Source: Bacteroidia bacterium (GTDB lineage Bacteria > Bacteroidota > Bacteroidia > Flavobacteriales > Flavobacteriaceae). From it: a stretch of DNA of 64,000 bases. Every line of letters begins with the position of its first letter. The first letter of the stretch is position 1. A program made the translations under genes and the position numbers. This document shows, piece after piece, positions 48,290 to 64,000 of the stretch. The DNA lies in assembly GCA_030432635.1 (NCBI GenBank), contig JAUIMB010000005.1:182019-246018 (forward strand). The letters run 5' to 3'. The notes below the pieces were generated by a model. That model saw nothing but the letters and a program-made list of their open reading frames with translations, did no database searches and was not told the origin of the DNA.

Positions 48290-48459
48290 AACGTCTTCGT
48301 GTATGGTTTGTTGAGGGAATTCAGCGCACGCGTGCGGCTGGCTTTCCGATGGAAAACGTGCGCTTTTCAGCACAATTTTCCGAGTAATAAATATAGTGAA
48401 TTTTACGTAAGAATTTTTCCTTGTCTTAACCAACAGAGCAATGAACTATACACGTTGTT
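48290..48459 (-). repeat. attC-like repeat 1, class B (distal end of array)
   Basis: 170 bp with central GCGCACG/CGTGCGC arms and the GGCTGGCTTTCCGATGG core. It begins AACGTCTTCG instead of AACGTGTTCG. Left of it only 30 bases separate it from the IS3 end, so its outer neighbour unit is lost or never existed. Confidence 0.85.
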
Positions 48460-48492
48460 GTACGATGGCATTGTCATATTTACAATCTAGAT

Positions 48493-49263
48493 TTAATAGA
48501 CTATTTCTTCAATAGTTGGTTGCTTATTGAATTTTATTATTCCATTTTCTTGTTTAAGAATATTTTCATTAATGCATTTAGAAATATCGGTGGAGAAACA
48601 TCTTATTTTAGAAATCCCATTATAGTTAAAAGTTTTATTGATTTTATTAAGTAAAAGTAAAAGATTTGGATGGTCTTCTAATTTTTGAAGTTGCTTTTCA
48701 GGTAAAGTGTTATGAAATAATATTACCGCAGGAATAACCTTTTGATAATTACCATAGTCATTTATTAATGTTTTAAGACGATTATATTTAATTAATCGAA
48801 AAAGGTAAACATAGATTTCAAGGATTGCTCTTAAAACGGACTCATTTGAGTTAGCTTTTGCCTCAAAGAAATATATTTCATTTTGTTTTACGGAAATAAA
48901 GTCGATTTTACCGTGATTTTTCTTGTCAATACCTTGATTTGGTTCAGTTAGTGGAATCTCATAATCAATTACTTTTCCAAAAAGTTCAAACTTACCGCTA
49001 TTATATAAAGCATAACAAAATCTTTTTTCTGTTATCTGTTTAATAGATGTTTGTAAGTTACATACTCCAATATGCTTTTTTATTTTAAAGTTTTGTTTGC
49101 GTAACCCTTTATCTACCCACTTAATTTTATCAAAATGTTTGAGAATTAAACTTGAAACGAACTCAGTGTAGCTTTTCCTTTTAACTATATCTGATTGATA
49201 TAAGTTCATCCAATCGTAGTTAAGTTGGTCAAACAAGACACTTAATTCTTTATTTGTTTTCAT
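48493..49263 (-). CDS. Cassette gene: PD-(D/E)XK nuclease-like protein
   Basis: A 256-residue protein without signal peptide. The middle holds a restriction-nuclease-like core: GKIDFISVK (Asp121) followed by YFFEAKANSNESVLRAILEIYVYLF (Glu134 and Lys136 as ExK), then helices with VIPAVILFHNTLPEKQL. This arrangement is the PD-(D/E)XK fold of nucleases. A role in restriction or other DNA processing is inference. It is the sole gene of unit 1 (ends GTTGTACGA / TCGTACAAC), starting 26 bases after repeat 2. Confidence 0.68.
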   Translation of the reverse strand: MKTNKELSVLFDQLNYDWMNLYQSDIVKRKSYTEFVSSLILKHFDKIKWVDKGLRKQNFKIKKHIGVCNLQTSIKQITEKRFCYALYNSGKFELFGKVIDYEIPLTEPNQGIDKKNHGKIDFISVKQNEIYFFEAKANSNESVLRAILEIYVYLFRLIKYNRLKTLINDYGNYQKVIPAVILFHNTLPEKQLQKLEDHPNLLLLLNKINKTFNYNGISKIRCFSTDISKCINENILKQENGIIKFNKQPTIEEIVY

Positions 49264-49289
49264 GCAATTAACTTATCATGCTTTCGTAC

Positions 49290-49410
49290 AACGTGTTGTG
49301 TATGGTTTGTAGTGTTGCAGACTAAGTTAATTAAAAAGGATTGAAGAGTTACGGGATTTCGCTAGAAATCCGCGAATTTTGAATAAACACTATAAACTAT
49401 ACACGTTGTT
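49290..49410 (-). repeat. attC-like repeat 2, class A
   Basis: 121 bp. Outer arms GTATGGTTTGTAGTGTT and AACACTATAAACTATAC pair; the centre has GGATTTC/GAAATCC around GCTA. Confidence 0.85.
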
Positions 49411-49424
49411 AGCTGTTGTAGTAA

Positions 49425-50126
49425 TTAATTTTGACTTGGATCCATAATATTAGTTGGATAATAATCTTGTCTGTTATTTTCATCAAGTTGCTCTAAATTA
49501 ATGAATGCGTCAATTTTATTGGATTTCAAATGTAAGTCTTCTTCTAGATTTAATGAGTATCTAATCTTAGTCTTAAATTCTCCTTTGAAAACAGGAATGC
49601 TGAATTCCCAATATTCATTTTCATCAAGTGTAATAGTATGGTAACTGTTTCCACAAGAACTTGAAGGTAAATAAGTTATTGCTTTCCAATTTCCGTTTTT
49701 ATCTAATGCTTCTATCTGAATATCGAGGCGACTATCTTGAGCAAAAAAATCAATTTTTGAATTTGTTGAATTCACTAAGTATAATTTTTGCCCAAAATAT
49801 TCCTCCGCGAATGTAGTATATTCTTTTTCACTTAAGAAGAGAGTAAGTTTTTCTTTTGGGAATGCCTTGTCTATTATTTTTGGATAGTTTTCAGAACGGT
49901 ATTCGCCATTTGGTTTCTCAGCGTTAGTCGAATTACTAAATGCTTCTAAAAATCCAATTAGTTGAAATTGAATATTTAATGAGTCTTTTTCAACTGTTTT
50001 ATTGTTCGAGAGCTGTTCAATCAAAACAGCATATTCATCATTATTTAATGGCGTAATACTTTTTTCTGTTCGTTTGTTACAACTAAAAAAATAAGAAACT
50101 AATAATATGGCTAATATCTTTTTCAT
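49425..50126 (-). CDS. Cassette gene: lipoprotein of unknown function
   Basis: A 233-residue lipoprotein (signal ending VSYFFSC, lipidated Cys about 16). The C-terminal half has a beta-rich domain: KLYLVNSTNSKIDFFAQDSRLDIQIEAL, NGNWKAITYLPSSSCGNSYHT, YWEFSIPVFKGEFKTKIRYSL. The same pattern (WKPIEYW...CGLSY, then GNIKTKIRFKL) occurs in the frameshifted gene at 63220-63899, so they are paralogs. Sole gene of unit 2 (ends GTTAGCTGT / ACAGCTAAC); the start is 14 bases from repeat 3. Confidence 0.7.
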   Translation of the reverse strand: MKKILAILLVSYFFSCNKRTEKSITPLNNDEYAVLIEQLSNNKTVEKDSLNIQFQLIGFLEAFSNSTNAEKPNGEYRSENYPKIIDKAFPKEKLTLFLSEKEYTTFAEEYFGQKLYLVNSTNSKIDFFAQDSRLDIQIEALDKNGNWKAITYLPSSSCGNSYHTITLDENEYWEFSIPVFKGEFKTKIRYSLNLEEDLHLKSNKIDAFINLEQLDENNRQDYYPTNIMDPSQN

Positions 50127-50140
50127 TGACTATTACAGCT

Positions 50141-50262
50141 AACGTGTTTGTGTATGGTTTGTAGTGTTTCAGACTAAGTTAATTAAAAAGGGGAGAAGAG
50201 TTGCAGGATTTCGTTAGAAATCCGCGAGACTTTTTTAAACACTATAAACTATACACGTTGTT
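50141..50262 (-). repeat. attC-like repeat 3, class A
   Basis: 122 bp, same arms as repeat 2, with GGGGAGAAG in the spacer and a GTTA core in the inner hairpin (GGATTTC-GTTA-GAAATCC). Confidence 0.85.
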
Positions 50263-50288
50263 AGCCACTGGCTTTTTATTAATCTTAA

Positions 50289-50828
50289 TTAGTCAATTAA
50301 AAACCTTGTCGAAGGTAATAATCTTGTGTCATCTAAAGAAGCGGCTCTGTGAGGTGAAATTTTCTTATACTCATCACTTTTGATGAATTTTTTGAAATCC
50401 TGTACTGATTCATATTCAACCAGTATGAATCCATCCCAAGTTTCATCTTCTGGGCCGACAAAAAAATTCTTGCTTTCTCCAAAATATAATACTCGCCCAT
50501 AATTGTTTTCTTCTATAATCTCTTCTACTAATTTGATGTAGTGTTTATAAACTTCTTTTCCAGTTTTGCCTATTTGCTTATTCGAAACCTCAATTCCTGT
50601 ATAGTCTGCCATAGGTTTAAACTTTAAAAAATTGACACTTGCGAATTTCCCCTTTCCGCTAAAATTTTCTTCTATTTCTTTCCAAGAATCAGGTGTAGCA
50701 TAGAGATATTTTGGTATAGATTTTAATTCCTCTAACGACTCTAAAGGTTCTTTGTTGATAGTATTTTGTTGTTTGCAGGATAGGACTAAAATTCCAATGA
50801 CCAAGAATACAATTTGTGTGGTTTTCAT
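50289..50828 (-). CDS. Cassette gene: lipoprotein with DUF1330-like dimeric alpha/beta barrel
   Basis: A 179-residue protein with a type II signal (LVIGILVLSC, lipidated Cys about 18). The mature part has GKGKFASVNFLKFKPMADY, a helix KEVYKHYIKLVEEIIEENN, YFGESKNFFVG, WDGFILVEYESVQDFKKFIKSDEYKKI and LDDTRLLPSTRF. This matches the DUF1330/antibiotic-biosynthesis-monooxygenase-like barrel, where a beta-alpha-beta unit ends in 'R..AL.D.R'. Enzymatic role unknown. Unit 3 (ends GTTAGCCAC / GTGGCTAAC). Confidence 0.7.
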   Translation of the reverse strand: MKTTQIVFLVIGILVLSCKQQNTINKEPLESLEELKSIPKYLYATPDSWKEIEENFSGKGKFASVNFLKFKPMADYTGIEVSNKQIGKTGKEVYKHYIKLVEEIIEENNYGRVLYFGESKNFFVGPEDETWDGFILVEYESVQDFKKFIKSDEYKKISPHRAASLDDTRLLPSTRFLID

Positions 50829-50879
50829 AGTTCTTATGCGATTTATAATTTTTTTTAATGACCTGTATGGCTTGTGGCT

Positions 50880-51000
50880 AACGTGTTGTGTATGGTTTGT
50901 AGTGTTGCAGACTAAGTTAGTTAAAAAGGAGGGAAGGGTTGTAGGATTTCGTTAGAAATCCGCGAGGTTTCTTTAAACACTATGGACTATACACGTTGTT
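50880..51000 (-). repeat. attC-like repeat 4, class A
   Basis: 121 bp, GGATTTC-GTTA-GAAATCC inner hairpin, outer arms as in repeat 2. Confidence 0.85.
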
Positions 51001-51018
51001 GTGGTACGTTAATTTGCA

Positions 51019-51885
51019 CTAGATTTTCTTTGCTACTATGTTTACATCCGGATCTGTAATATTAAGACTTCTAATGACTTCATCCGTGCTCTCAAAGGTT
51101 ATGATTACAGAAGGAGCTCCATTATAAGTAAATTTATTCTCACCAATTTTATATAATGCTCCTCCAAATCCACCAATTGGTGCTATGGAAAGCAATTTTC
51201 TCATATTGATACTAATAGTGAAGCCTTCATTTTTACCATTTCCATATTTATAATCACCAATATACTTTTTTTGATCTTCTGGACTTACATCAATATACTT
51301 TTCACCATCTGCGTTTCCTAAAGACTCTAAATATTCAATTGTTTTTTCTAAGTTTTCTATTTCATTGTCCACCATATCATCTTTCATTCTTCTTCCAGCA
51401 AATGCGTGATCTAATAGGCTAATACCGTGAGGTCCTGTGATTTTTTGTATACCATTTGATGATTCTATAATAGATTTAACGACTTGAAAATGTCCTAGCA
51501 TTGCAAAAGTGAAAATTGTAGGTCTAGCTCCTTTGCTCATTAGATACAATGCTATGTCTCTTCGACCTACGTGTGAAGCAGCTCCAATCGCGGATTCAAA
51601 ATCACCAAATCGCCATTCCCAGACTGATCTAGAAAGTTCGGGTCTTTTATCCACTAATTCTTTTACACGGTCTAAGTCAAAATGAGACTTGCCTACAACC
51701 TCTGATATAATTTTAGGCGAAATATTTGGGAAATATTCAGGTATTATTTGATCGCTTTCAGCTATTTTAAAAAAATTCTCTTTAGTTTGGTTCGAATATA
51801 GCATATTGGGAATTGCTAAGCCTAATAATGCTAAAGAACTAATCTTTAATGAAGTTCTTCTATCAATGTTCTTGTTTTTTTTCAT
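51019..51885 (-). CDS. Cassette gene: Tat-type exported ankyrin-repeat protein
   Basis: A 288-residue protein starting with a twin-arginine-like signal (DRRTSLKISSLALLGLAIP, RR at residues 9-10). The middle carries ankyrin-like helix pairs (FESAIGAASHVGRRDIALYLMSKGARPTIFTFAMLGHFQVVKSII, HGISLLDHAFAG). The C-terminus has a beta domain (KKYIGDYKYGNGKNEGFTISINMRKLLSI, KFTYNGAPSVIITFES). The combination resembles other flavobacterial ankyrin proteins with an added beta module. Function unknown. Unit 4 (ends GTTGTGGTAC / GTACCACAAC). Confidence 0.7.
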   Translation of the reverse strand: MKKNKNIDRRTSLKISSLALLGLAIPNMLYSNQTKENFFKIAESDQIIPEYFPNISPKIISEVVGKSHFDLDRVKELVDKRPELSRSVWEWRFGDFESAIGAASHVGRRDIALYLMSKGARPTIFTFAMLGHFQVVKSIIESSNGIQKITGPHGISLLDHAFAGRRMKDDMVDNEIENLEKTIEYLESLGNADGEKYIDVSPEDQKKYIGDYKYGNGKNEGFTISINMRKLLSIAPIGGFGGALYKIGENKFTYNGAPSVIITFESTDEVIRSLNITDPDVNIVAKKI

Positions 51886-51911
51886 TTTGCCTTAGTTGAA
51901 TAATGTACCAC

Positions 51912-52079
51912 AACGTGTTTGTGTATGGTTTGTTGCGGAATGGCAGCGCACGTGTGCGGCTGGTCTTCCGCGGAAAACGTGCGCTTTTCAGCACAGATTT
52001 CCGTGTTTTAAATATAGTGAATTTTACGTATTAAATTTCTTTCACTTAACCAACAGAGCAATGAACTATACACGTTGTT
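51912..52079 (-). repeat. attC-like repeat 5, class B
   Basis: 168 bp. Central arms GCGCACG/CGTGCGC with TCTTCCGCGGAAAA between; end TTAACCAACAGAGCAATGAAC. Confidence 0.85.
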
Positions 52080-52087
52080 GTATGCCG

Positions 52088-52624
52088 TTAACTTTTTGTC
52101 ATATAGTAGAATTCACGTTCTAATTCGTATTTCATTCGTTTTGCACTTCTCCTCATTACAAAATAAGGTATTCCAAACATTAGGGCTGCGTGAATAAATA
52201 TAAAGGGTAATGCGAAGCCAGCACCATTTCCGTCAAAATTATCAGACATAAGAAAACCAGCGATGAATATAGAATAGAAGATAATGGCAAATACATAAAA
52301 AGGGATCATGATTCCGCTAAATCCATTTATTTCGGTTTCAATTATCAATTTCTCATTATCTTGTCGATAAGTTCCGCGTGCAACTGCCAAATTCATACCC
52401 ATATCGAATAATTTTCTTCTCCTTTTTATTTTGAATCCTTCAATTCCAACTTGTCCTTTATATTCATTTTCACTTGAAGTAAAGATATCAAAAGTATCAA
52501 AAAAAAATCCTGTACTTCCTTCATCAACAATTTGACTGAATTTTGAAACAAACTGAGATTTTTGAATATCAATGTTTGTTGTCAAGTATTGAATAAGTTT
52601 TATTTTTTTTAAAAATTCTTTCAA
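52088..52624 (-). CDS. Cassette gene: membrane protein with two helices
   Basis: A 178-residue protein: a soluble N-terminal domain (KSQFVSKFSQIVDEG, FDIFTSSENEYKGQVGIEGFKIKRRRKLFDMGMNLAVARGTYRQDNEKLIIETEING), then two membrane helices (about 108-133 and 143-165) and a basic tail. 'VEGFKIKRRRKLFD' followed by beta strands suggests a small cytosolic beta domain. Not recognised. Unit 5 (ends GTTGTATGCC / GGCTTACAAC, two mismatches over 16). Confidence 0.62.
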   Translation of the reverse strand: MKEFLKKIKLIQYLTTNIDIQKSQFVSKFSQIVDEGSTGFFFDTFDIFTSSENEYKGQVGIEGFKIKRRRKLFDMGMNLAVARGTYRQDNEKLIIETEINGFSGIMIPFYVFAIIFYSIFIAGFLMSDNFDGNGAGFALPFIFIHAALMFGIPYFVMRRSAKRMKYELEREFYYMTKS

Positions 52625-52645
52625 GATGGTATGTTAATGGCTTAC

Positions 52646-52815
52646 AACGTGTTCGTGTATGGTTTGTTGCGGAATGACAGCGCACGCGTGCGGCTGGCTT
52701 TCCGATGGAAAACGTGTGCTTTTCAGCACAGATTTCCGTGTTTTAAATATAGTGAATTTTACGTAAGGATTTTTCTTTCACTTAACCAACAGAGCAATGA
52801 ATTATACACGTTGTT
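52646..52815 (-). repeat. attC-like repeat 6, class B
   Basis: 170 bp, with GCGCACGCGTGCG and CGTGTGC arms (one C-to-T change in the 3' arm). Confidence 0.85.
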
Positions 52816-52828: not shown

Positions 52829-53371
52829 TTAATTCCATTTTTCTATTAACGCAGTCACTCCATTTTTAATTCCTTTATAATATTCTCCATTTTTTAATTC
52901 TGGAATAATAGTTTTGTCTAATACTTCTTTGCAGATTTCGTTTGTCAAAACTATTTGAGTTCCAGTTCCAGCTGCTATTCCAATTTTCCGACATGGTTTG
53001 CAGATGACTATAGTCAATCCATTATTTTTTTCAGAGTCTCCAATTCCCCAATAATTACTTAAATCAGTTGCATATTTTACAATATCAGAATAAGGAGAGA
53101 TACTATCAATTGTTACGATTACAATTTGTCGAGTTGTTTTTATGTTATAATTATAAATTAAATCTGATAGTTCTTGTCTTTGATTCGGACTAAGTATGCT
53201 ATCATAATCATTAATAATAAGACCTTGAAGTTTTGTGTTTCGAAATTTTTCAACTGATGAAAAGTCAAATTCAGTTGTTGGTTTTATTGTTTCTGTTTCT
53301 TGTGAAATTCCTTTGCAAGAAACAAAACTCAATGTCAGAAATAGGATTAGTATTTTAGTTCCGATTTTCAT
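52829..53371 (-). CDS. Cassette gene: exported TPM-domain protein (YgcG/Psb32 type)
   Basis: A 180-residue protein with a lipoprotein-like signal (LFLTLSFVSC) and a TPM domain: INDYDSILSPNQRQELSDLIYNYNIKTTRQIVIVTIDSI, KYATDLSNYWGIGDSEKNNGLTIVICKPCRKIGIAAGTG, CKEVLDKTIIPELKNGEYYKGI. Family members act in phosphatase or photosystem repair processes; here unknown. I chose the ATG at 53371, overlapping the SRPBCC stop by ATGA, instead of 53389, because the signal then starts at MKIGTK. Second gene of unit 6. Confidence 0.82.
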   Translation of the reverse strand: MKIGTKILILFLTLSFVSCKGISQETETIKPTTEFDFSSVEKFRNTKLQGLIINDYDSILSPNQRQELSDLIYNYNIKTTRQIVIVTIDSISPYSDIVKYATDLSNYWGIGDSEKNNGLTIVICKPCRKIGIAAGTGTQIVLTNEICKEVLDKTIIPELKNGEYYKGIKNGVTALIEKWN

Positions 53372-53841
53372 TTTATAACTTCTTTCCATTTGTTAGATTC
53401 CGCAAACTCTTTTACAATTCGATTTCTTTCGGTTAGTAATTCAGTCATATATTTTTTAAGAAAGAGCTTGTCCGCTAACTTGCCTAAAATTCCGAAAGGT
53501 GATTTATAATCAAAAAAGTCGGTCATTAAAGTTCCGTCATTCGATTCCTTAAAGTGATGTTCGTGTTTAAATTCGGCAAACGCTCCTTTAACCATTTCGT
53601 CTGCAAAGTATTTAGGTCGGTCATATTCCGTGATTTTGGAAGTCAGATTTTGATAGATTCCAAAGTGTTTTGCTCTCCAAGTAACACTTTCATTCATTCC
53701 AATTAATCCACTTGTTTTTCCAGCGATTGCTTCTTCATTAGTTTGTTCTGTCGATATTTTGTGCAAATCGACACTTCGAGACAAGTCAAACACGATATGT
53801 CTATCAGCTTTTATTTCAGTTTGAAGTTCAATTCTCGGCAT
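53368..53841 (-). CDS. Cassette gene: SRPBCC (polyketide cyclase-like) family protein
   Basis: A 157-residue START-like protein: PRIELQTEIKADRHIVFDLSRSVDLHKIS, VTWRAKHFGIYQNLTSKITEYDRPKYFADEMVKGAFAEFKHEHHF, DGTLMTDFFDYKSPFGILGKLADKLFLKKYM. This is the common cytosolic SRPBCC fold with a hydrophobic cavity, found widely in bacteria without known ligand. First gene of the two-gene unit 6 (ends GTTGTACAC / GTGTACAAC); its TGA stop overlaps the TPM gene ATG, so the unit is an operon. Confidence 0.85.
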   Translation of the reverse strand: MPRIELQTEIKADRHIVFDLSRSVDLHKISTEQTNEEAIAGKTSGLIGMNESVTWRAKHFGIYQNLTSKITEYDRPKYFADEMVKGAFAEFKHEHHFKESNDGTLMTDFFDYKSPFGILGKLADKLFLKKYMTELLTERNRIVKEFAESNKWKEVIK

Positions 53842-53859: not shown

Positions 53860-53981
53860 AACGTGTTCGTGTATGGTTTGTAGTGTTGCAGACCAAGTTA
53901 ATTAAAAAGGAGGGAAGAGTTGCAGGATTTCGCTAGAAATCCGCGAGTTTTGTTTAAACACTATGAGCTATACACGTTGTT
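53860..53981 (-). repeat. attC-like repeat 7, class A
   Basis: 122 bp, starts AACGTGTTCGTG as class B does, otherwise class A with GGATTTC-GCTA-GAAATCC. Confidence 0.85.
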
Positions 53982-54008: not shown

Positions 54009-54332
54009 CTATTCAATTTCAATATTTTTTAGTTGAATCAGTTTTTCGGATTTAGTCATTCTTTTTCCAAAATATTGGTCAATTTCATTATTTAGCCATT
54101 TTTCTCTATAATTCTCCCAACTCTTTTCATAAGGTGGCTCTCCACTATCGTCAAATCCGTATTCAAATCCGCACGAACAGATATCGTATGATGGAAGTCC
54201 TGTTTCGTCATAAGGTCTCCATTCCTTATTCTTTGCTTTTTCTCCGCAAACTGGACAATAGCAAAATCCGTCAGAACTTATTTTTAATTCGACTTTTTTT
54301 CCGTTCCAAGTATTTATTATTTCTTTTTTCAA
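54009..54332 (-). CDS. Cassette gene: CPCC-type cysteine-rich protein
   Basis: A 107-residue protein with a cysteine-rich centre: YCPVCGEKAKNKEWRPYD and YDICSCGFEYGFDD. The paired C-x-x-C sites separated by a WRPYDETGLPSYDIC stretch are typical of the CPCC-like domain family (cysteine-rich CPCC), probably zinc binding, with function unknown. Second gene of unit 7 in transcription order. Confidence 0.78.
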   Translation of the reverse strand: MKKEIINTWNGKKVELKISSDGFCYCPVCGEKAKNKEWRPYDETGLPSYDICSCGFEYGFDDSGEPPYEKSWENYREKWLNNEIDQYFGKRMTKSEKLIQLKNIEIE

Positions 54333-54348
54333 AAGGTTGTTAATTTTT

Positions 54349-54666
54349 TTAATCAGAAATTGTCACTTCTATTGCTTTTAAATCAGTTTTGCCAAAATTC
54401 ACATCCAAATGAAATGGTGTCATATATCCAAAGTCCAGCAAATAATGAAAATTCGTGTTAGTGCTATCTTTTGGAAATCCAAGGTATTCAATTGTTTCCG
54501 ATTTCGTTTTCCCGATTAATATTTGACTTTCAACTAAATCAGTCGACATATTTCCACGCTCAATTTGAGTTCCACTTATCCATTTTTCATTATCAAACTT
54601 TTCCGTTTTGTTTTTGTTTCCGCAACTCAAAAAAAAGATAAATAATAGTAATAATGTTTGTTTCAT
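54349..54666 (-). CDS. Cassette gene: BamE/SmpA-like small lipoprotein
   Basis: A 105-residue lipoprotein (signal LLLFIFFLSC, lipidated Cys about 15) with QILIGKTKSETIEYLGFPKDS followed by short strands (FHYLLDFGYMTP, DVNFGKTDLKAIEVTI). The helix 'IGKxKxExIExLGxP' also occurs in the chromosomal protein at 2370-2711, which suggests a shared BamE-like fold. First gene of unit 7 (ends GTTGGCAAA / TTTGCCAAC), 16 bases before the CPCC gene. Confidence 0.68.
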   Translation of the reverse strand: MKQTLLLLFIFFLSCGNKNKTEKFDNEKWISGTQIERGNMSTDLVESQILIGKTKSETIEYLGFPKDSTNTNFHYLLDFGYMTPFHLDVNFGKTDLKAIEVTISD

Positions 54667-54689: not shown

Positions 54690-54859
54690 AACGTGTTCGG
54701 CTATGAGTTGTTGCGGGAATGCAGCTTGCGTGAGCGGCTGGATTTCCGATGGAAAACGCGAGCTGTTCGCACGGATTTTCCGTTTTTGGTTAATTTGAAT
54801 TAAAAGTAAGAAAAATTCCTTTGCTTAACCAACAGAAGCAATTACTTATAGCCATTGTT
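54690..54859 (-). repeat. attC-like repeat 8, class C
   Basis: 170 bp. Outer arms CGGCTATGAGTTGTTGC and GCAATTACTTATAGCC replace the A/B arms with covarying bases; central arms GCTTGCG/CGCGAGC. Confidence 0.82.
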
Positions 54860-54871: not shown

Positions 54872-55408
54872 TTATTCAGCGTATTTTTTGTATTCAACTA
54901 TTTTAGCTTTTAACCTTGTGTTCAGATATTCATTTTTATTTTTTAACATCTCGTTAATCAATTTGGCTTCATTCAGATAATTCAATATTTTGTCTTTTCC
55001 CCAAAACTTTGGTGGTTCTTGAAGGTTAGTAATTCTATCCGCTAGTTTAACGATTCCGACTTCTTTTTCCAATTGATTAATTCGGTTTAAACTATCTGTC
55101 ATTTTCTCTTTTTTAGAAGTCAGATTGTCGTTTTTGGTCAAAGCTTGAATTCCCAAAGCTACTTTTTCTCCAAATTGTTCCTTTAGTTCTGAAAATTCAG
55201 TTTTGGTATCTTCTAAAGTATCGTGAAGTAGAGCTAATTGTATTGCATAATTTATATCAAAATCTTTATTTTCATTGTGAGCTAAAATGATTTCCATTGC
55301 AACATTTGAAATATGTAACAAATAGTTCGCATCTGTTCCAGGTACTTTTTGATTTTTATGTTTTTCTCCAGCAAACTTTATGGCTTTCTGATATATTTCT
55401 TGTGTCAT
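54872..55408 (-). CDS. Cassette gene: HD-domain protein (MESH1/RelA-SpoT-hydrolase-like)
   Basis: A 178-residue HD hydrolase: AIKFAGEKHKNQKVPGTDANYLLHISNVAMEIIL (His32), QLALLHDTLEDTKTEFSELKEQFGEKVALGIQALTK (His62-Asp63, Glu66-Asp67), IVKLADRITNL. This is the (p)ppGpp-hydrolase-like (MESH1/SpoT HD) branch without a synthetase domain. Cleaving ppGpp or a related nucleotide is likely from the family but not shown. Sole gene of unit 8 (ends GTTGTAGCCA / TGGCTACAAC). Confidence 0.82.
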   Translation of the reverse strand: MTQEIYQKAIKFAGEKHKNQKVPGTDANYLLHISNVAMEIILAHNENKDFDINYAIQLALLHDTLEDTKTEFSELKEQFGEKVALGIQALTKNDNLTSKKEKMTDSLNRINQLEKEVGIVKLADRITNLQEPPKFWGKDKILNYLNEAKLINEMLKNKNEYLNTRLKAKIVEYKKYAE

Positions 55409-55433: not shown

Positions 55434-55603
55434 AACGTGTTTGTGTATGGTTTGTTGCGGAATGACAGCGCACGCGTGCGGCTGGCTTTCCGATGGAAAA
55501 ACGTGCGCTTTTCAGCACTGATTTCCGTGTTTTAAATATAGTGAATTTTACGTAAGGTTTCTCTTTCTTTGACCAAACTAAGCAATGAACCATATACATT
55601 GTT
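55434..55603 (-). repeat. attC-like repeat 9, class B
   Basis: 170 bp; the ending CATATACATTGTT departs from CTATACACGTTGTT at several bases. Confidence 0.82.
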
Positions 55604-56055: not shown

Positions 56056-56176
56056 AACGTGTTGTGTATGGTTTGTAGTGTTTCAGACCAAGTTAATTAA
56101 AAAGGATTGAAGAGTTACGGGATTTCGTTAGAAATCCGCGAAGTTTCATTAAACACTATGGACTATACACGTTGTT
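56056..56176 (-). repeat. attC-like repeat 10, class A
   Basis: 121 bp, class A arms, GTTA inner loop, TTTCAGACCA variant at the left shoulder. Confidence 0.85.
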
Positions 56177-57014: not shown

Positions 57015-57135
57015 AACGTGTTGTGTATGGTTTGTAGTGTTACAGACTAAGTTAATTAAAAAGGGGAGAAGAGTTGCAGGATTTCGCTAGAAATCCGCGA
57101 GACTTTTTTAAACACTATGGACTATACACGTTGTT
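57015..57135 (-). repeat. attC-like repeat 11, class A
   Basis: 121 bp, class A, GGATTTC-GCTA-GAAATCC inner hairpin. Confidence 0.85.
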
Positions 57136-57146: not shown

Positions 57147-58061
57147 TTATACATATTTTGAATATTTCGATAAAAACCTTTTTTTTTCAACTATTTTATT
57201 TTCTTGATACCAATATAAATGGTCATTTTCGAGTCCATTTAATTTGTCAAAAAACACTGGGTATTTCATTCGGTCGATAAATTGTCGCCAGTATCTTTTA
57301 TGTAAATTAATGTTTGTAAATTTTCCACTATGCCTATGAAGTTCAGTTTTAAATTCGTGACCAAAAAACCTCTTTGCTTCCCAAGAATATAATTCTCTAC
57401 ATAATTCATTAATTTGATTTTGAATTTCGTAGGTAATTAACTGCGAGTTAAAGTTTTCGTGAAATTCTATTTCAAAATGCGAGCCATTTGATATATCAAG
57501 ACTCTTGAAATTCTTATTGTCAAATATTTCCTTAAAAAGAGGTTTATTTAATAAGTTTGTTCTGAAATTGTCCATATCATATTTATGGATATCAGTGAAA
57601 TATTCTGGAATTGAAATGCAAATTGAATTTAGTTTTTTGTTAGTTTGATAATGTAATTCAGAGTTAGAAGCTAAATTCTTTCCGTTTAAAATCCATATCA
57701 TTCCTTCTTTTCCATAGAAGGTTTCTCTTTGTTCTATTTCATCAATTTTAATAGGCGAGTACTGAATTTCTATAACTAATTTGTTATTTAATACAATATC
57801 AGCTCGATGTCTTATATTTTTTGTATCGATTAGAGTTACTTCTTGATTGTCAAGAGGGAATTTATTTTGCCAATTCAAATGCCATTTAGTAATTGGCTCA
57901 TACCAATTATCACAATCTTTATTTGCTTTATGAGACCAATGTTTTATTTTTATTTTTCCTTTTTTTCCAATAACGACTGAATTGCAATCAGGGCATTTTC
58001 CTTGTTCTCCTGATTTAGACACCTCTATTTTTTTATCATTTTCATCAAAAGCATATCTCAT
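57147..58061 (-). CDS. Cassette gene: CoiA-like competence/nuclease family protein
   Basis: A 304-residue protein with the CoiA layout: start MRYAFDENDKKIEVSKSGEQ, a zinc-ribbon (C23PDC26) and HWSHKANKDCDNW, then a nuclease-like core IRHRADIVLNNKLVIEIQYSPIKIDEIEQRE (Asp88, Glu98-x-Gln100), GMIWILNGKN. In Streptococcus, CoiA is needed for recombination of taken-up DNA. In cassettes such a gene could process DNA; this is inference. Sole gene of unit 11 (ends GTTGTAGCCA / TGGCTACAAC, the same end sequence as unit 8). Confidence 0.82.
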   Translation of the reverse strand: MRYAFDENDKKIEVSKSGEQGKCPDCNSVVIGKKGKIKIKHWSHKANKDCDNWYEPITKWHLNWQNKFPLDNQEVTLIDTKNIRHRADIVLNNKLVIEIQYSPIKIDEIEQRETFYGKEGMIWILNGKNLASNSELHYQTNKKLNSICISIPEYFTDIHKYDMDNFRTNLLNKPLFKEIFDNKNFKSLDISNGSHFEIEFHENFNSQLITYEIQNQINELCRELYSWEAKRFFGHEFKTELHRHSGKFTNINLHKRYWRQFIDRMKYPVFFDKLNGLENDHLYWYQENKIVEKKRFLSKYSKYV

Positions 58062-58087: not shown

Positions 58088-58257
58088 AACGTGTTTGTGT
58101 ATTGTTTGTTGCGGAATATCAGCGCACGCGTGCGGCTGGTCTTCCGCGGAAAACGTGCGCTTTTCAGCACAATTTTCCGAGTAATAAATATAGTGAATTT
58201 TATGTAAGATTTTTTCTTTCATTCAACCAAATAGAGCAATGAATTATACACGGTGTT
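58088..58257 (-). repeat. attC-like repeat 12, class B
   Basis: 170 bp, ending CACGGTGTT instead of CACGTTGTT; the matching AACGGTATT variant is at the start of repeat 13, in the partner position of the same unit. Confidence 0.82.
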
Positions 58258-58807
58258 ACCCAACGTTTTTATTTCTTAATCTTTTCTTTTTCTGATATTT
58301 ATATTCATAAATCTTGAATCGGATTTTACCCAAAAAACTATTCCACTCGTGACGAATTCCACCTAATTCCCAATTCACATCAAATTTTTCGGAATCATTT
58401 TTTCGATAATTCGGAAGTCCGATTTTACAATGTAACATTGGATTATTCTCTTTTACAGTTTCATGAAAGTCAGACTCAAGTGATGATTTCGGATAGTATT
58501 GAATTTCAATTATCGTACTTTCCTTTTTACTTTTATATATGTACAAATTTATGTCGTACAGATTTTCATAAATATCTTTTAATTCACTCGTTATTTGCTC
58601 AAGCGATTTAGGCTTTTTTTTATCGTTTATTTTTTTGCGTTCAATTCGTTTGTCAAAAAAATTCCGTTCGTCATTTACTATTTCCGAAATTATGTAACTT
58701 GTATTATCCGAAATTTTATTCCAAATAGAATTTCTCGCCATTTCTAATAGGGAAGAAGTGGCTTCTTTTAAATTCAGTTCAAGGTTGTTTTTCGTTACTT
58801 TTTTCAA
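58256..58807 (-). CDS. Cassette gene: protein of unknown function
   Basis: A 183-residue protein, lysine-rich and without signal peptide. It starts with a helical part (LNLKEATSSLLEMARNSIWNKIS) and has beta strands near LYIYKSKKESTIIEIQYYPKSS and CKIGLPNYRKNDSEKFDVNWELGGIRHEWNSFLGKIRFKIYEYK. I do not recognise it. Its TAA stop at 58256-58258 uses bases of the recombination box (GTTACCC), so it ends at the unit border. Second gene of unit 12 after the small membrane protein. Confidence 0.65.
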   Translation of the reverse strand: MKKVTKNNLELNLKEATSSLLEMARNSIWNKISDNTSYIISEIVNDERNFFDKRIERKKINDKKKPKSLEQITSELKDIYENLYDINLYIYKSKKESTIIEIQYYPKSSLESDFHETVKENNPMLHCKIGLPNYRKNDSEKFDVNWELGGIRHEWNSFLGKIRFKIYEYKYQKKKRLRNKNVG

Positions 58808-58811
58808 AATA

Positions 58812-59033
58812 TTAATGAGTCCGTTTTATAAATATTAAGCACGAAACTACAGTCAAAACTAAAATTCCAATTGTTCCGTAAATTATCAAATTCAGCCACA
58901 TTCCAACATTGTGAATTCCCGAAGCAAATTTGTTTAATAATGGTTCAGCCGAAAAAAATAGAACTATCGTCAAAATGACAAAAGTTAATAGATGAATTCC
59001 TATGATTTTTCGTTTTCTCAATGTTTCTCTCAA
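58812..59033 (-). CDS. Cassette gene: small two-helix membrane protein
   Basis: A 73-residue protein: basic start (RKRKIIGIHLL), a membrane helix (about 10-28), an extracytoplasmic loop (EPLLNKFASGIHNVGMW) and a second helix (about 44-66). The start is TTG at 59033, only nine bases from repeat 13; no ATG occurs before the first helix, so the start is uncertain. First gene of unit 12 (ends GTTACCCAA / TTGGGTAAC), four bases before the next gene. Confidence 0.62.
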   Translation of the reverse strand: MRETLRKRKIIGIHLLTFVILTIVLFFSAEPLLNKFASGIHNVGMWLNLIIYGTIGILVLTVVSCLIFIKRTH

Positions 59034-59042
59034 ATGTTGGGT

Positions 59043-59164
59043 AACGGTATTGTGTATGGTTTGTAGTGTTGCAGACTAAGTTAATTAAAAAGGAGGGAAG
59101 AGTGGCAGGATTTCGCTAGAAATCCGCGAGGTTCCTTTAAACACTATGAGCTATACACGTTGTT
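59043..59164 (-). repeat. attC-like repeat 13, class A
   Basis: 122 bp, starts AACGGTATTGTG (variant of AACGTGTTGTG), GGATTTC-GCTA-GAAATCC inner hairpin. Confidence 0.84.
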
Positions 59165-59635
59165 GTGCATAGTATTTTTTATTTCCTCAATTTCAGATTC
59201 AATTTCCGCATAGTTTATAAATCCGTTTTGAGTTGTTGTTTTTTTAACTGTCTTTTTCCAAAATGGATAAGCCCAAGTCAACACTGTTCCGTAGTTTTTC
59301 CAATTCCCATTTCCATCTTCAAATTCATATTCATTTCGGTATGCCAATTTGCCTTTATAGAAATCAATTCTTCGTTTCTTACAGGTCAAAAATTGAAGGA
59401 ATTCATTAAACCCTTTATTCAAGTCATCATATTTTTGATTATAATGTATATGACTAATTCCATATCCAACAGTTAATTGTCCACCTTCGTCGAGTTCAAT
59501 CCAAATTGACGATTCGTTTTCATTTTCTGAATCCAAAGTCAGATGAGTTCCATTTTCAAATTCCGAAACTCTTTCCGGAAAATTAGTTTTCAGAAGTTTC
59601 TTTATTTTACTAAATGTCAATTCGTGATTCGTCAT
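59144..59635 (-). CDS. Cassette gene: protein of unknown function reading into the repeat
   Basis: A 163-residue cytosolic protein: TNHELTFSKIKKLLKTNFPERVSEF, HLTLDSENENESSIWIELDEGGQLTVGYGISHIHYNQKYDDLNKGF, FLQFLTCKKRRIDFYKGKLAYRNEYEF, NWKNYGTVLTWAYPFWKKT. The last residues (MHNNVYSS) are encoded by the start of repeat 13. I chose the ATG at 59635; an upstream GTG at 59650 lies at the repeat border. No family recognised. Unit 13 (ends GTTGTGCATA / TATGCACAAC). Confidence 0.66.
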   Translation of the reverse strand: MTNHELTFSKIKKLLKTNFPERVSEFENGTHLTLDSENENESSIWIELDEGGQLTVGYGISHIHYNQKYDDLNKGFNEFLQFLTCKKRRIDFYKGKLAYRNEYEFEDGNGNWKNYGTVLTWAYPFWKKTVKKTTTQNGFINYAEIESEIEEIKNTMHNNVYSS

Positions 59636-59650
59636 TCCAATATTATGCAC

Positions 59651-59772
59651 AACGTGTTTGTGTATGGTTTGTAGTGTTGCAGACTAAGTTAATTAAAAAG
59701 GAGGGAAGAGTTGCAGGATTTCGTTAGAAATCCGCGAAGTTTCATTAAACACTATAAACTATACACGTTGTT
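59651..59772 (-). repeat. attC-like repeat 14, class A
   Basis: 122 bp, class A arms, GTTA inner loop. Confidence 0.85.
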
Positions 59773-59786
59773 GTGCTTACGTTATT

Positions 59787-60548
59787 TTAATCTAACTCCC
59801 TTTCAATTAAATCCAAAACACGTTTTATATAAGATTCAATATTTTCTTCATTGATAAAAACATAATATTGGTTCATATAATGATCAAAAATGGTTCCATC
59901 TACTTCAAGAGAAGTTATTAATTTCTTATAGTTTTCCTCCGAAACACTCAAAGGAGTTATTTGCTTTTGTCTTAGATAATCAGGTCTAAACTGTGTGGCA
60001 TCTGAGTTTCTAATTGGAATATGCTTTCTAATAATAGGAAGTAAATGATTTAGCCAATGTTCTCGTCTTATGATAACATCTTCTTTTAAATCATTTAACT
60101 CTCCTGACCATTGACTAAGATGAATTTTAAGTGAATCACTTTGAATTAAATCCAATTTACCTGAGCTGATAGCTTGATTTATATATCCAATACTTGGATC
60201 GAAAGTTGCAAATGTGCACAATTGACCCATTAAACTATCTATCCGCTTAGTACTTATTAGATGCTTATCAGTTTCTAAAAATTGATATGTTGCTTCTAGC
60301 ATTCTAAGATTGATTTTATGATCAGCATTTAATTCATTAAGATTTTTGGTAAATTCTTGTTTTAAATTTTGAAGTAATATTTGTTCTTCATTTCTATCGT
60401 CTTGATAATTTTTCAAGTTGTTTATGCTCAATGCAATTAAAATTCCAATAACGACAAGAATAATCTCTCCAATAGCATATTTAAAATACTTTCCAGTTTT
60501 TCCTTCTGAAAGTAAATTTTGTCTAATTTTTCTAAAAAATTTTATCAT
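59787..60548 (-). CDS. Cassette gene: DUF6090 family membrane protein, copy 2
   Basis: A 253-residue DUF6090 protein. The first 43 residues (MIKFFRKIRQNLLSEGKTGK, YFKYAIGEIILVVIGILIAL, INN) equal those of the copy at 56220 except for one or two substitutions. The extracytoplasmic part (YQDDRNEEQILLQNLKQEF, LNELNADHKINLRMLEATYQFLETD) differs. Its leader is cut short: upstream of the start the usual 66-base DUF6090 leader is replaced by about 26 bases that resemble the left end of a DUF6090 cassette. Second gene of the fused unit 14. Confidence 0.87.
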   Translation of the reverse strand: MIKFFRKIRQNLLSEGKTGKYFKYAIGEIILVVIGILIALSINNLKNYQDDRNEEQILLQNLKQEFTKNLNELNADHKINLRMLEATYQFLETDKHLISTKRIDSLMGQLCTFATFDPSIGYINQAISSGKLDLIQSDSLKIHLSQWSGELNDLKEDVIIRREHWLNHLLPIIRKHIPIRNSDATQFRPDYLRQKQITPLSVSEENYKKLITSLEVDGTIFDHYMNQYYVFINEENIESYIKRVLDLIERELD

Positions 60549-60574
60549 TGGTTAACGTTGCACTTGCGTTATTT
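60549..60574 (-). other. Probable scar of a lost attC-like repeat between two DUF6090 cassettes
   Basis: The plus-strand bases GTTGCACTTGCGTTATTTTT at about 60557-60576 align with GTTGTGCTTACGTTATTTTA just after repeat 14 (about 59770-59789). So a second cassette left end is present here without its repeat. Confidence 0.5.
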
Positions 60575-61333
60575 TTATCTGTTGTTCAACTCGCTATTGA
60601 TTTCAGCAATTAGTCTTTTGGTATTCCGAATACTTCTTTTAAAAACTGTCCTTCTATATGTATTACTATTTCTTTGTTTAGTGTCTAGATAATGTTCAAC
60701 AGCTAAGTATGTTGGCGAATTAGGGTTGTTTATCCAAGTAGTATCTATTGTTGTTATATCAATCTTTGGATTCTTTAATTGATTTACTAAAAATTTGTAA
60801 GGATATAAGTCAGGTGATTTGTCAAATAAAAATGCCTGTTCATCATTAACTTCATTGATATATCCTTTATCTGCATTTAAATTTAAATAATGTGCAATTA
60901 TTTTTTCCTGAAGAGTCTTATTTGTCATGTTATACATGCTGCCAGAATTAATCATTTCGAGATATGTATTGTTGTTAACATATAAAACATTCCACATATC
61001 ATCATTCAATTCATCAACAACACCTATATCTTCAGAAGTTTTGGCTTTGTAAAAGAGATCAATTGATTTGGCAGTTTTTGATTCAAGAATTGCATAAAGT
61101 GAATCTTCTTTGTTTAATCGTTTTATATCCGCTTCCAAATCGTTTTTTAGATTTTTTAGCATGATTACTTCCTTTTCAGATTCAATTCTCGAAGTGTTCT
61201 TATTATTTATTCCAAGTGCAATTAAAATTCCAATCACCACAAGAAATATTTCTCCAATTGCATAAATTAAGTACTTACTGAATTTGTTTTCAGAGAGTAG
61301 TTTATGTCTAATTTTTCGAAAGAATTTTATCAT
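60575..61333 (-). CDS. Cassette gene: DUF6090 family membrane protein, copy 3
   Basis: A 252-residue DUF6090 protein. Its N-terminus (MIKFFRKIRHKLLSENKFSKYLIYAIGEIFLVVIGILIALGINN) is the most diverged of the three copies. The outer domain contains LKNLKNDLEADIKRLNKEDSLYAILE and NNTYLEMINSGSMYNMTNKTLQEKII. First gene of unit 14 (outer ends GTTGTGCTTA / TTAAGCACAAC), with the same 66-base leader as the copy at 56220. Confidence 0.87.
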   Translation of the reverse strand: MIKFFRKIRHKLLSENKFSKYLIYAIGEIFLVVIGILIALGINNKNTSRIESEKEVIMLKNLKNDLEADIKRLNKEDSLYAILESKTAKSIDLFYKAKTSEDIGVVDELNDDMWNVLYVNNNTYLEMINSGSMYNMTNKTLQEKIIAHYLNLNADKGYINEVNDEQAFLFDKSPDLYPYKFLVNQLKNPKIDITTIDTTWINNPNSPTYLAVEHYLDTKQRNSNTYRRTVFKRSIRNTKRLIAEINSELNNR

Positions 61334-61399
61334 TGGTTGGAATTTCTCTAAAGTTAGAATAATTATTTAATTCCGTTTGAGTGAGAAATAATTAAGCAC

Positions 61400-61569
61400 A
61401 ACGTGTTCGGCTATGAGTTGTTGCGGGAATTCAGCTCGCGCGAGCGGCTGGCTTTCCGATGGAAAACGCGAGCTGTTCGCACGGATTTTCCGCTTTTGGT
61501 TAATTTGGATTAAAAGTAAGAAAAATTCCTTTGCTTAACCAACAGAAGCAATTACTTATAGCCATTGTT
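61400..61569 (-). repeat. attC-like repeat 15, class C
   Basis: 170 bp, GCTCGCG/CGCGAGC central arms and CGGCTATGAG/CTTATAGCC outer arms as in repeat 8. Confidence 0.84.
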
Positions 61570-62368
61570 ACCTGCAGTTTTTTAATTCCGTTATTATTTT
61601 TTCAGTTCTATTTCCACCAACAATACAGCCAGAACAAGTTTCAGTCAGCATTGGTTTTGTTTTTAATTCCTCAATTCGAGTTTCAATCGATTTCTTTTGA
61701 GCATCACCAAATTCAGTCAGATTACAATGATAAAATTCAATTGCCATTAATCGAGTTGCTGGATTTTTGCTGTATAGTAAATACTCACAATTTTCACTTT
61801 TTATTAATCCATCAAACACTTTTCTGTTGTTCATTAAGCTCATTCCATAACCACAGTAATTACCAAAAGTTATTCCAATAAATGGACTCATTATTTCGTT
61901 CAGGTTGTTATTATTCCATTTTTCTATTCCAGTTAACGGTTCGGTTGAGTTGTCAATTCCGAAATAGATTGGTTCCACTTTATAATCGTCATTAACTTTG
62001 AAAAGAGTAGATAGTTTTTCCTTGTAAAGCTTTTTTAGTCTCTTTGATTTATTCGGAATGCGTGTTGTTAGTTGATAAGAAACAATTTCGTTTTTGTAAT
62101 ACAAAATCTGATAATTAACTGTCATACTCCCAAGACCTTTTCCACTTTGTTTTAATTGATAGCCAAAGCCTAAATTTTCGCGTCTCTCGTTTTTGACTTC
62201 CAAGGTTTTCATTAATTCCTCTGTCGATGTTTCATACGCTTTTTTCAATTCCGTTACAAAAGCTGTATCAACTCGAACATAATATTTTTCCACTTCCGTT
62301 TTTTGAGAAAATGAAAAGTTCCAAATTCCTAAAGTCAGTAAAATTGATATGTAGATTGCTTTTTTCAA
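61568..62368 (-). CDS. Cassette gene: exported protein of unknown function
   Basis: A 266-residue protein with a signal peptide (AIYISILLTLGIWNFSFSQ). The mature part includes TAFVTELKKAYETSTEELMK-like helices (here DTAFVTELKKAYETS), NLGFGYQLKQSGKGLGSMTVNYQILYYKNEIVSY, ITFGNYCGYGMSLMNNRKVFDGLI, ATRLMAIEFYHCNL and a C-terminal CSGCIVGGNRTEKII. Not recognised. The start is a TTG nine bases from repeat 16; the TAA stop at 61568-61570 uses the border box GTTACC. Unit 15 (ends GTTACCTGCA / TGCAGGTAAC). Confidence 0.66.
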   Translation of the reverse strand: MKKAIYISILLTLGIWNFSFSQKTEVEKYYVRVDTAFVTELKKAYETSTEELMKTLEVKNERRENLGFGYQLKQSGKGLGSMTVNYQILYYKNEIVSYQLTTRIPNKSKRLKKLYKEKLSTLFKVNDDYKVEPIYFGIDNSTEPLTGIEKWNNNNLNEIMSPFIGITFGNYCGYGMSLMNNRKVFDGLIKSENCEYLLYSKNPATRLMAIEFYHCNLTEFGDAQKKSIETRIEELKTKPMLTETCSGCIVGGNRTEKIITELKNCR

Positions 62369-62377
62369 ATTGCAGGT

Positions 62378-62498
62378 AACGTGTTGTGTATGGTTTGTAG
62401 TGTTTCAGACTAAGTTAATTAAAAAGGATTGAAGAGTTGCGGGATTTCGTTAGAAATTCGCGAAGTTTGATTAGACACTATGAACTATACACGTTGTT
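62378..62498 (-). repeat. attC-like repeat 16, class A
   Basis: 121 bp, class A with several substitutions (GAAATTCGCG, TTAGACACTATG). Confidence 0.84.
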
Positions 62499-62509
62499 GT
62501 ATGCAGTTT

Positions 62510-63013
62510 TTATTTATTCAATTTCCAAGTTTTCTTATCAGCCGTTTTTATAGATTCAATTTTGTATCCATTTAGTATAATTTGTTCGATATCTGATTTT
62601 CCTAGTCCACAACTTGTTCTTTCGAAAACAAATTTATTGGTTGTCAATTCAGACGGATTTACTTTAAAACCATCGACTGATGAAATACATTGGCTGAAAA
62701 TATTCAATTCATAATCACCATTTTCTCTCTTGATTAAATGAATTTGAATTTCTTTGTCTTGAAAATCCATAATATAAGATTTAACATGTTGACATTCTCT
62801 GTAATTCATTAGACCTTTAAAAGAAGTCTTTTCATAAAAATCAATCTTTTCTATTAAATTTATACTGTCAATTTCACTTTTGTCAGAAGTAAGATAATAT
62901 TTGTTTTTTATTTTACTTAAGTCGAATAAACTTTCGTTTATAGGTTTTAGTTTACATTCTTTTTCACAAGACGTAAGAATTAAAAAAAGAAGTAAGATTA
63001 TTTTAATTCGCAT
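62510..63013 (-). CDS. Cassette gene: lipoprotein of unknown function
   Basis: A 167-residue lipoprotein (signal LLFLILTSC, lipidated Cys about 16) with KLKPINESLFDLSKIKNKYYLTSDKSEID, EKTSFKGLMNYRECQHVKSYIMDFQDKEIQIHLIKRENGDYELNIFSQC and VFERTSCGLGKSDIEQIILNGYKI. The repeated Cys residues suggest disulfides. No family recognised. Unit 16 (ends GTTGTATGCA / TGCATACAAC), start 23 bases after repeat 17. Confidence 0.66.
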   Translation of the reverse strand: MRIKIILLLFLILTSCEKECKLKPINESLFDLSKIKNKYYLTSDKSEIDSINLIEKIDFYEKTSFKGLMNYRECQHVKSYIMDFQDKEIQIHLIKRENGDYELNIFSQCISSVDGFKVNPSELTTNKFVFERTSCGLGKSDIEQIILNGYKIESIKTADKKTWKLNK

Positions 63014-63036
63014 TTAATTCTTTCAAAATTGCATAC

Positions 63037-63207
63037 AACGTCTTCGTGTATGGTTTGTTGCGGGAATTCAGCGCACGCGTGCGGCTGGATTTCCGATGGA
63101 AAACGTGCGCTTTTCAGCACTGATTTCCGTGTTTTAAATATAGTAAATTTTACGTAAGAATTTTTCCTTCTCATAACCAATTAGAGCAATAGACTATACA
63201 CATTGTT
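63037..63207 (-). repeat. attC-like repeat 17, class B (rightmost seen)
   Basis: 171 bp, begins AACGTCTTCG as repeat 1 does; ending ACTATACACATTGTT. Confidence 0.84.
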
Positions 63208-63219
63208 GTACTACGTATA

Positions 63220-63899
63220 TTAATTTTGCTTCTTCTTTTTTAATTTTTTGATGAAGTCATCCATTACTTTGTTGTATTCTTCTATCGCATTGGGCTCTAA
63301 AAAGATTACTTTTTTCAGTAAAGACCTACTTCCTCTTTTTTCTATAAGCTTGTATGTGTTGTATTCAGTGATATTATCTGGGATTTCAAAATGAGATATA
63401 TTTACATTTCCATCGATTGAATTGGAATAATATGATTTGTTATCATTTAAAAGTTTAAATCTGATTTTTGTTTTGATATTCCCATTGTATTGTTTTGATA
63501 CGGTCTTAATTATTCCGTTCGGTTCCAGTTTTCTTTCATGTAACTTAATCCGCACCAAGAATATTTCCAATATTCAATCGGTTTCCATTTTCCATCATTT
63601 GATTTTGCTTCTTGAATCATGTATAAATGTTCGTCTTGACTTGAAATTTTCAATGAATCTGATGATTTGTTTACAAGATAAATAGTTAGCAATGAGTCAT
63701 TGGTTTTTTCAAGTAATAAATTAATTTTTTGATCAGATTCGTTTGAAGAGAACAAGATTTTCTTAAGGTCCAAAGGTGCGATGAAATCTCTGTCGATTAA
63801 GTTTGTGTTATATTCCATGTCAGACCTTTGAGCATTGAGAATCGTGGTCACGCACAAGATGAAAAGTGTAATCATATTTTTCATAATCTGACAACTCAT
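63220..63899 (-). pseudogene. Cassette gene broken by a frameshift (paralog of the gene at 49425-50126)
   Basis: Two overlapping frames: 63510-63899 gives a signal peptide (FILCVTTILNAQ) and text up to WKPIEYWKYSWCGLSYMKE, then a stop. 63220-63570 continues with LEPNGIIKTVSKQYNGNIKTKIRFKLLND and more. Joined, they give the same order as the unit 2 lipoprotein (WKAITYLPSSSCGNSYHT ... GEFKTKIRYSL), so one base gain or loss near 63515-63545 splits a single gene. It lies in unit 17, whose right end is not reached (100 bases to the window edge show no further repeat). Confidence 0.7.
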
Positions 63900-64000
63900 A
63901 TATGTCTAGTCCTGAAATATGGCTACAGGTTAAAAATTGATTTACGCTGTTTTTAAATATACCATATTTGGTGTTTTATAATCTAAAGATACATGTAATC

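Follow-up and report, generated by a model that had tools for sequence, protein, structure and literature searches.

The window examined here is a 64,000-nt stretch of the chromosome of a marine flavobacterium, part of contig C30 of its assembly, and it carries an array in which attC-type repeats alternate with small gene cassettes; coordinates of the array are given as window positions. Seventeen repeats lie at 48290-63207, with the first AAC and the last GTT taken as the limits of each, and all of them point the same way as the cassette genes, along the minus strand. They come in two length classes, 121-122 bp (nine copies) and 168-171 bp (eight copies), which have their outer parts in common and differ in their inner parts. 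The repeats bound 16 complete cassettes, and the genes chosen for these units, one or two in each, are all on the minus strand; a further, 17th unit is interrupted where the window and contig C30 both end (246018), and the array continues past the contig. The first-pass annotation of this stretch had described 17 directly oriented palindromes of these lengths and 16 complete one- or two-gene units on a single strand, and all of these were recovered. It had placed gene starts 9-66 bases after a repeat and stops at or just before the next; on recounting, starts fall 0-66 bases downstream of a repeat, which preserves the upper bound and not the lower, and stops range from 43 bases ahead of the next repeat to 21 bases within it. 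Its remark that the border boxes keep GTT and lose the full GTTRRRY pattern agrees with our counts: the pattern fits 0 of the 17 right-hand (R') boxes in the window and 10/243 across all sites, and GTTR is present in 238 of these 243.

Read along the minus strand, the array begins with the cassette truncated by the contig end (63220..64000, two overlapping open reading frames, ORFs) and repeat 1 (63037..63207, 171 bp), after which every complete cassette ends in a repeat of its own. Genes without a Pfam match make up cassettes 1 (167 aa, 62510..63013, ending in repeat 2, 62378..62498, 121 bp), 2 (266 aa, 61568..62368; repeat 3, 61400..61569, 170 bp), 4 (168 aa, 59144..59650; repeat 5, 59043..59164, 122 bp), 12 (178 aa, 52088..52624; repeat 13, 51912..52079, 168 bp), 13 (288 aa, 51019..51885; repeat 14, 50880..51000, 121 bp), 15 (233 aa, 49425..50126; repeat 16, 49290..49410, 121 bp) and 16 (256 aa, 48493..49263; repeat 17, 48290..48459, 170 bp, the final repeat of the array). 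The same holds for the 183-aa gene of cassette 5, whose 73-aa companion was not scanned (58256..59033; repeat 6, 58088..58257, 170 bp). Pfam domains were recognized in cassette 3, with two DUF6090-type genes (60575-61333 and 59787-60548, together 59787..61333; repeat 4, 59651..59772, 122 bp); cassette 6, with CoiA-like nuclease domains (57147..58061; repeat 7, 57015..57135, 121 bp); cassette 7, DUF6090-like and slightly below the cut-off (56220..56948; repeat 8, 56056..56176, 121 bp); cassette 9, with an HD domain (54872..55408; repeat 10, 54690..54859, 170 bp); cassette 11, in which a polyketide-cyclase-like gene, slightly below the cut-off, accompanies a TPM-domain gene (52829..53841; repeat 12, 52646..52815, 170 bp); and cassette 14, with DUF1330 (50289..50828; repeat 15, 50141..50262, 122 bp). 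Cassette 8 holds a 134-aa gene (55628..56032; repeat 9, 55434..55603, 170 bp) and cassette 10 two genes of 105 and 107 aa (54009..54666; repeat 11, 53860..53981, 122 bp). The three DUF6090-type genes of cassettes 3 and 7, within one array, have repeated 5' parts in common. An Rfam scan of the array returned nothing relevant and one chance match, and PADLOC gave no match for 10 cassette proteins, taken from the 20 scanned with Pfam.

If such units had been inserted as circles, the sequence to the left of a unit's terminal AAC (R'') and that to the right of its starting GTT (R') would once have formed one hairpin. R'' and R' of the same unit are then predicted to be complementary, whereas the R'' and R' found within one array repeat belong to different units and are not. 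In the window, the two ends of the same cassette are complementary over a mean of 6.0 nt beyond AAC/GTT (n=16), with at least 6 nt in 14 of the 16; the remaining two, cassettes 8 and 12, match over 1 and 3 nt. Ends within the same repeat match over a mean of 1.6 nt (n=17) and other end pairs over 1.43 nt (n=256). The observed sum of 96 was reached by none of 100,000 permutations (mean 26, maximum 68). Such complementarity is as expected of units that were formerly circles, and dispersed repeats or terminators would not produce it. The first-pass annotation had allowed that the repeats might occur without paired unit ends, in which case a cassette system would be doubtful; the pairing of 14 of the 16 own ends speaks the other way, and supports its proposal that this flavobacterial chromosome carries a divergent array of the integron type, with attC-type sites. 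The window array is a real cassette array. Canonical IntI arrays of the phylum display the same sort of end match in the examples we viewed, which were not scored; the matching therefore marks cassettes generally and not the present variant.

The sites also resemble attC in the strand that folds. DNA folding favours the bottom strand in 15/16 window sites and 52/54 others, or 67 of the 70 sites found with a pattern that missed one of the 17 window repeats. In the outer stems of these 70 sites, non-Watson-Crick positions are G-T on the bottom strand 175 times, G-T on the top strand seven times and mismatched on both strands 120 times. Among 264 sites found without repeat patterns the corresponding numbers are 588, 50 and 195, and 11 canonical sites show the same lean more weakly (20 to 10). 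Folding of whole sites detected as chains, restricted to chains of at least three, favoured the bottom strand in 104/132. An RNA hairpin under selection is unlikely to be the reason for the bottom-strand G-T excess, since the mRNA carries the top-strand sequence.

Eight tyrosine recombinase matches were found in the genome that contains the window. The best of them against the integron-integrase model is a 390-aa protein whose gene is separated from the end of contig C38 by 372 bp; it and the window array lie on separate contigs that are not joined in the assembly. This protein scores 206 bits against a model cut-off of 265, with the IntI-specific stretch of the model unmatched, and 217 bits against the NF040815 model (Xer/XerA type), whose cut-off is 220. 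The best sequence and fold matches of its catalytic half are to XerA (5hxy). The IntI insertion is absent from all 27 aligned members of its clade, in which the corresponding interval measures 75-76 aa, compared with 117 aa in 24/24 canonical IntI; six canonical loci out of 30 were excluded because they fell outside 300-350 aa or lacked the motif, as was a duplicate record, the same exclusions apply to the clade comparison, and one empty row from the own genome carries no weight. Residues R229, K254, H318, R321, H344 and Y353 are invariant in a 12-row integrase alignment. The clade is separate from the Xer proteins of the same genome, and its members carry an extra N-terminal domain of about 95 aa, possibly and at most weakly HARP/XPB-like in profile and fold comparisons; a profile search of this domain against the PDB gave a best E of 0.16. 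Judged by its sequence, the C38-type enzyme is not an IntI. Relatives occur in Psychroserpens algicola (66% identity, orthologue), an Algicola metagenome-assembled genome (MAG), Paucihalobacter and Gramella/Christiangramia. On an Acinetobacter plasmid, tet(X3) has immediately upstream of it a short relative of the integrase (L121, 4052-4717), with 44% identity across residues 136-370, and of the 63 plasmid records with a match 49 are from Acinetobacter; that tet(X3) is a first cassette on these plasmids found no support, as no matched ends were detected.

In relatives of the C38 enzyme the arrays stand next to the integrase gene. In P. algicola the first sites appear 439 bp beyond the integrase and share its strand. 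A pattern search around 20 integrase relatives returned 44 matches in 12 loci, all 3' of and co-directional with the integrase, and none in the other eight; the sequence retrieved covered 4 kb on the upstream side and some 15 kb on the downstream side (L042 being the same record as L015), and with flanks so unequal the strand agreement is the stronger half of this result. A sequence-free detector, which uses matched ends only, joined by gaps of 100-190 bp and with no repeat sequence, found 215 links in nine extended arrays compared with 14.9 in shuffled sequence; the signal is weak in genomes G747 (2 versus 0.8) and G314 (4 versus 1.1). The longest single chains comprise 33 cassettes, and common repeat lengths are 123-127 bp. 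The first such detector was strand-blind, because GTT...AAC is its own mirror, and orientation was read from the genes, of which 175 in the nine arrays lie on the integrase strand and 10 on the opposite one. In 16/27 loci a matched-end cassette begins 26-119 bp past the integrase stop, on the same strand; among the remaining 11 loci, the contig ends first in three, and eight lack a matched cassette that close. In the closer clade an attI-like sequence, ...GATATAAC[C/T/G]A^GTT..., stands ahead of the first cassette, often preceded by a GTTATAT-like half-site. At the C38 locus this motif lies 36 bp past the integrase stop, as identified by eye (the pattern search chose another GTT), and the far end of the first cassette there was not found in the window or in part of contig C9. 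In G163, assembled as a single contig, 22 pattern matches co-directional with the integrase are spread over 48 kb, beginning 5.7 kb past it, the remaining matches lying elsewhere on both strands.

Two Gramella strains differ abruptly at the GTT of this site. Within the 200 bp ahead of it their identity is 96-97%, and beyond it only 49/137 bases are alike: these are different first cassettes at one attI-like site. Cassettes also recur at other positions. The first cassette at attI in G750 is found in G138 some 10 kb farther along the array (90.4% identity over 851 nt), and the shared 851 nt start at GTT and end one base beyond AAC. Within five genomes, 254 homologous cassette pairs were compared, among 243 cassettes with both neighbours delimited; the downstream repeat was the better conserved in 149 and the upstream one in 13, although 237 of the pairs come from G306. 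Conservation of the downstream repeat equals that of the cassette body; for the upstream repeat it is close to background in 4/5 genomes. It is thus likelier, as far as sequence comparison goes, that the moving unit is a gene with its downstream attC, as in integrons. The comparison of cassette content between strains that the first-pass annotation had proposed therefore reveals change, with differing first cassettes in the Gramella pair and cassettes copied within arrays.

The system is also widely distributed. A relative of the integrase at E <= 1e-60 is present in 78/395 sampled genomes of the order and in 20/23 of the same genus, identity being 52% or higher in 16 of the latter. The repeat pattern is found in 81/395 genomes of the order, and a backwards control pattern also matches some (five times in G277). 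Among the 33 genomes with at least three pattern matches 21 have the integrase, versus 57/362 of the rest (p = 7e-9).

Several observations weigh against so coherent a picture. The association between sites and integrase is absent within the family once genus g2 is removed, in part because the integrase cut-off is strict: of 12 genomes with sites only, seven have a relative just under the cut-off, two a weaker or partial one, and three Xer-like enzymes only. In genus g2, bottom-strand folding prevails at 0/3 sites of one locus and at 3/13 of a second, although the stem wobbles nevertheless lean the usual way (6:0 in G231, 37:4 in G334). In all three cassettes shared between genomes, the bodies are 87-90% identical and the downstream repeats only 46-54%, and in the G033/G105 pair it is instead the upstream repeat that is shared (86%). 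Between genomes, repeats seem on this evidence to be exchanged or to diverge fast, and the unshared downstream repeats lower our confidence slightly. The conditions that the first-pass annotation set for doubting a cassette system mostly came out in favour of one, with paired ends, differing first cassettes and copied cassettes; in some genomes, similar sites also lie away from the integrase.

Taken together, we consider it quite probable that the window holds an integron-type array built by the C38 tyrosine recombinase, an enzyme without the IntI-specific domain that is predicted to use the folded bottom strand. We infer that it is the C38 enzyme that serves the window array. The system has most of the structural properties by which an integron is tested and lacks the defining integrase, and is best read as an integron-type system of Bacteroidia whose integrase is not an IntI. 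Of the two possibilities named by the first-pass annotation, a CALIN-like array (a cluster of attC sites without an integron integrase) or a chromosomal integron, the integron type stands; an integrase-less CALIN is too narrow a description, given the C38 candidate and the relatives found directly upstream of arrays. The main departure from known integrons is the integrase without an IntI domain, together with an attI that is 3' of and co-directional with its gene; the imperfect fit to GTTRRRY is secondary as a novelty, because canonical IntI arrays of the phylum deviate from it likewise.

In the working we propose, a cassette circle (gene plus attC) would insert at attI with a crossover at G^TT, for which the single-stranded hairpin of the attC bottom strand would be used. 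The bottom stem would be held together by G-T wobbles opposite the A-C mismatches of the top strand, with about three rather than six unpaired bases near the crossover. New cassettes would enter beside the integrase and older ones shift away from it, and excision would be insertion reversed. In the weakest step, which is a prediction, the HARP/XPB-DRD-like N-terminal domain may help to recognize the hairpin junction and so replace the IntI insertion. Whether these properties define a separate Bacteroidia kind of integron that evolved independently of the IntI type, with a Xer-type recombinase, a HARP-like junction-binding N-terminus in place of the IntI insertion, single-stranded hairpins marked by G-T wobbles, a downstream attI and large arrays, in marine and other flavobacteria, invisible to software that relies on the IntI domain, is to our mind evenly balanced.

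The closest known counterpart is the sedentary chromosomal integron of the Vibrio type, which likewise has an array of one- or two-gene cassettes with an attC-type hairpin 3' of each gene, a GTT junction, favoured folding of the bottom strand and insertion beside the integrase. In canonical integrons, cassettes are oriented opposite to the integrase gene. The present system differs in that its integrase has an extra N-terminal domain and no IntI insertion, its attI is 3' of the integrase gene with cassettes co-directional with that gene, its boxes are GTTR followed by cassette-specific bases, and the G-T wobble asymmetry of its stems is strong. Xer/XerA recombinases (NF040815) resemble the catalytic half of the C38-type integrase; they act at a single dif site, whereas the C38 type has about 95 extra N-terminal residues and cassette arrays.

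An ordinary IntI integron or a CALIN remnant, its classical attC sites having formerly been the substrates of a canonical IntI, would share the same cassette logic, and matched ends do occur in some canonical arrays of the phylum. Canonical IntI is also common there, exceeding the cut-off in 105/395 genomes of the phylum sample. Yet of 108 matching genomes none is labelled as the same order or nearer, and one as the same class; the C38 integrase falls short of the IntI cut-off with the specific stretch unmatched, the insertion is missing throughout its clade, the arrays of relatives are 3' of and co-directional with the integrase, and none of the window boxes fits GTTRRRY. We regard this explanation as very improbable. 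The canonical control is itself thin, with eight loci fetched and chains of at least three in three loci in one run and two in the other; genes on the integrase strand and the opposite one number 0 to 11 at L078 and 3 to 0 at L079. At L079, from a genome with canonical IntI (G399), three units whose boxes include GTTACC and GTTGTG lie 4-8 kb upstream, and G399 possibly holds both systems.

A module system of the Xer/dif kind, driven by host XerC/XerD and not by the C38 enzyme, is likewise very improbable. The genome does have other Xer-type recombinases, and three site-bearing genomes have Xer-like enzymes only, both of which would suit it. Sites of dif modules are short and alternate in orientation, whereas those described here measure 121-171 bp and keep one orientation; the integrase clade, moreover, is distinct from the genome's own Xer proteins and sits at attI in relatives. 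Least probable are dispersed hairpin elements (miniature inverted-repeat transposable elements or repetitive extragenic palindromes) that came by chance to lie between co-directional genes: palindromic repeats in two sequence classes, similar sites far from the integrase in other genomes and the separation of body and downstream repeat in three cross-genome pairs would suit them, but each unit's own borders are complementary, so that insertion was not independent of gene borders, all repeats have one orientation, units are copied within genomes along with their downstream repeat, and the junction falls exactly at GTT behind an integrase.

Some further observations concern neighbouring or related sequences. 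An insertion sequence (IS) element with two ORFs, IS3-like by eye, adjoins the distal end of the array at 46966-48218, and contig C9 starts with 99 bp identical to it; assembly breaks may thus be located at IS copies. Contig C9 (L012/L013, 2748-16556 and beyond) has another array-type stretch, in which four or more sites are complete. The body of one of its cassettes matches a cassette body from a Bacteroidia MAG at 87% identity across 2550 nt, the end arms and flanking repeats being unshared. In G306 (L027, L112, L113), 41/56 delimited cassettes have no ATG-initiated ORF of at least 50 aa, and this set includes a few ACTCAAA/GGAATT-rich types in numerous near-identical copies, which the first cassette on C38 resembles by eye.

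We found no account of this system in a literature search that took in neither preprints nor most subscription journals. IntI is described as an integrase with a specific additional domain, through which surveys locate its gene, according to the accessible part of PMC9668308. Published surveys, as far as their available text goes, list Bacteroidota among the integron-bearing phyla, and the portion of the IntegronFinder 2.0 paper at hand names one complete integron for Bacteroidetes proper, that of Salinibacter (PMC9024848). In the excerpted text of PMC9892861, the Polaribacter phage P12002L is reported to carry a CALIN; of two attC sites tested there, IntI1 reportedly recombined one, yielding recombinants from the bottom strand and none from the top. 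That text names no flavobacterial integrase. In the phage record (L120), sites that resemble the present type lie at 31118, 32492, 38036, 38880, 39123 and 39516, around methyltransferase and hypothetical genes; two are merely 54-56 nt long, and the count has no chance control. To judge from such resemblances, phages may carry cassettes of the present type.

What is described here is probably a gene-collecting system widespread in flavobacteria that has so far been overlooked. If it works as we infer, the IntI insertion would be dispensable for hairpin-based cassette capture, and there would be a second, natural test system for how a recombinase selects a single strand when its site is folded. 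The 78/395 genomes of the order carry a relative of this different integrase, some of them at the head of arrays of tens of cassettes, and a large flavobacterial gene pool would then have gone uncounted.

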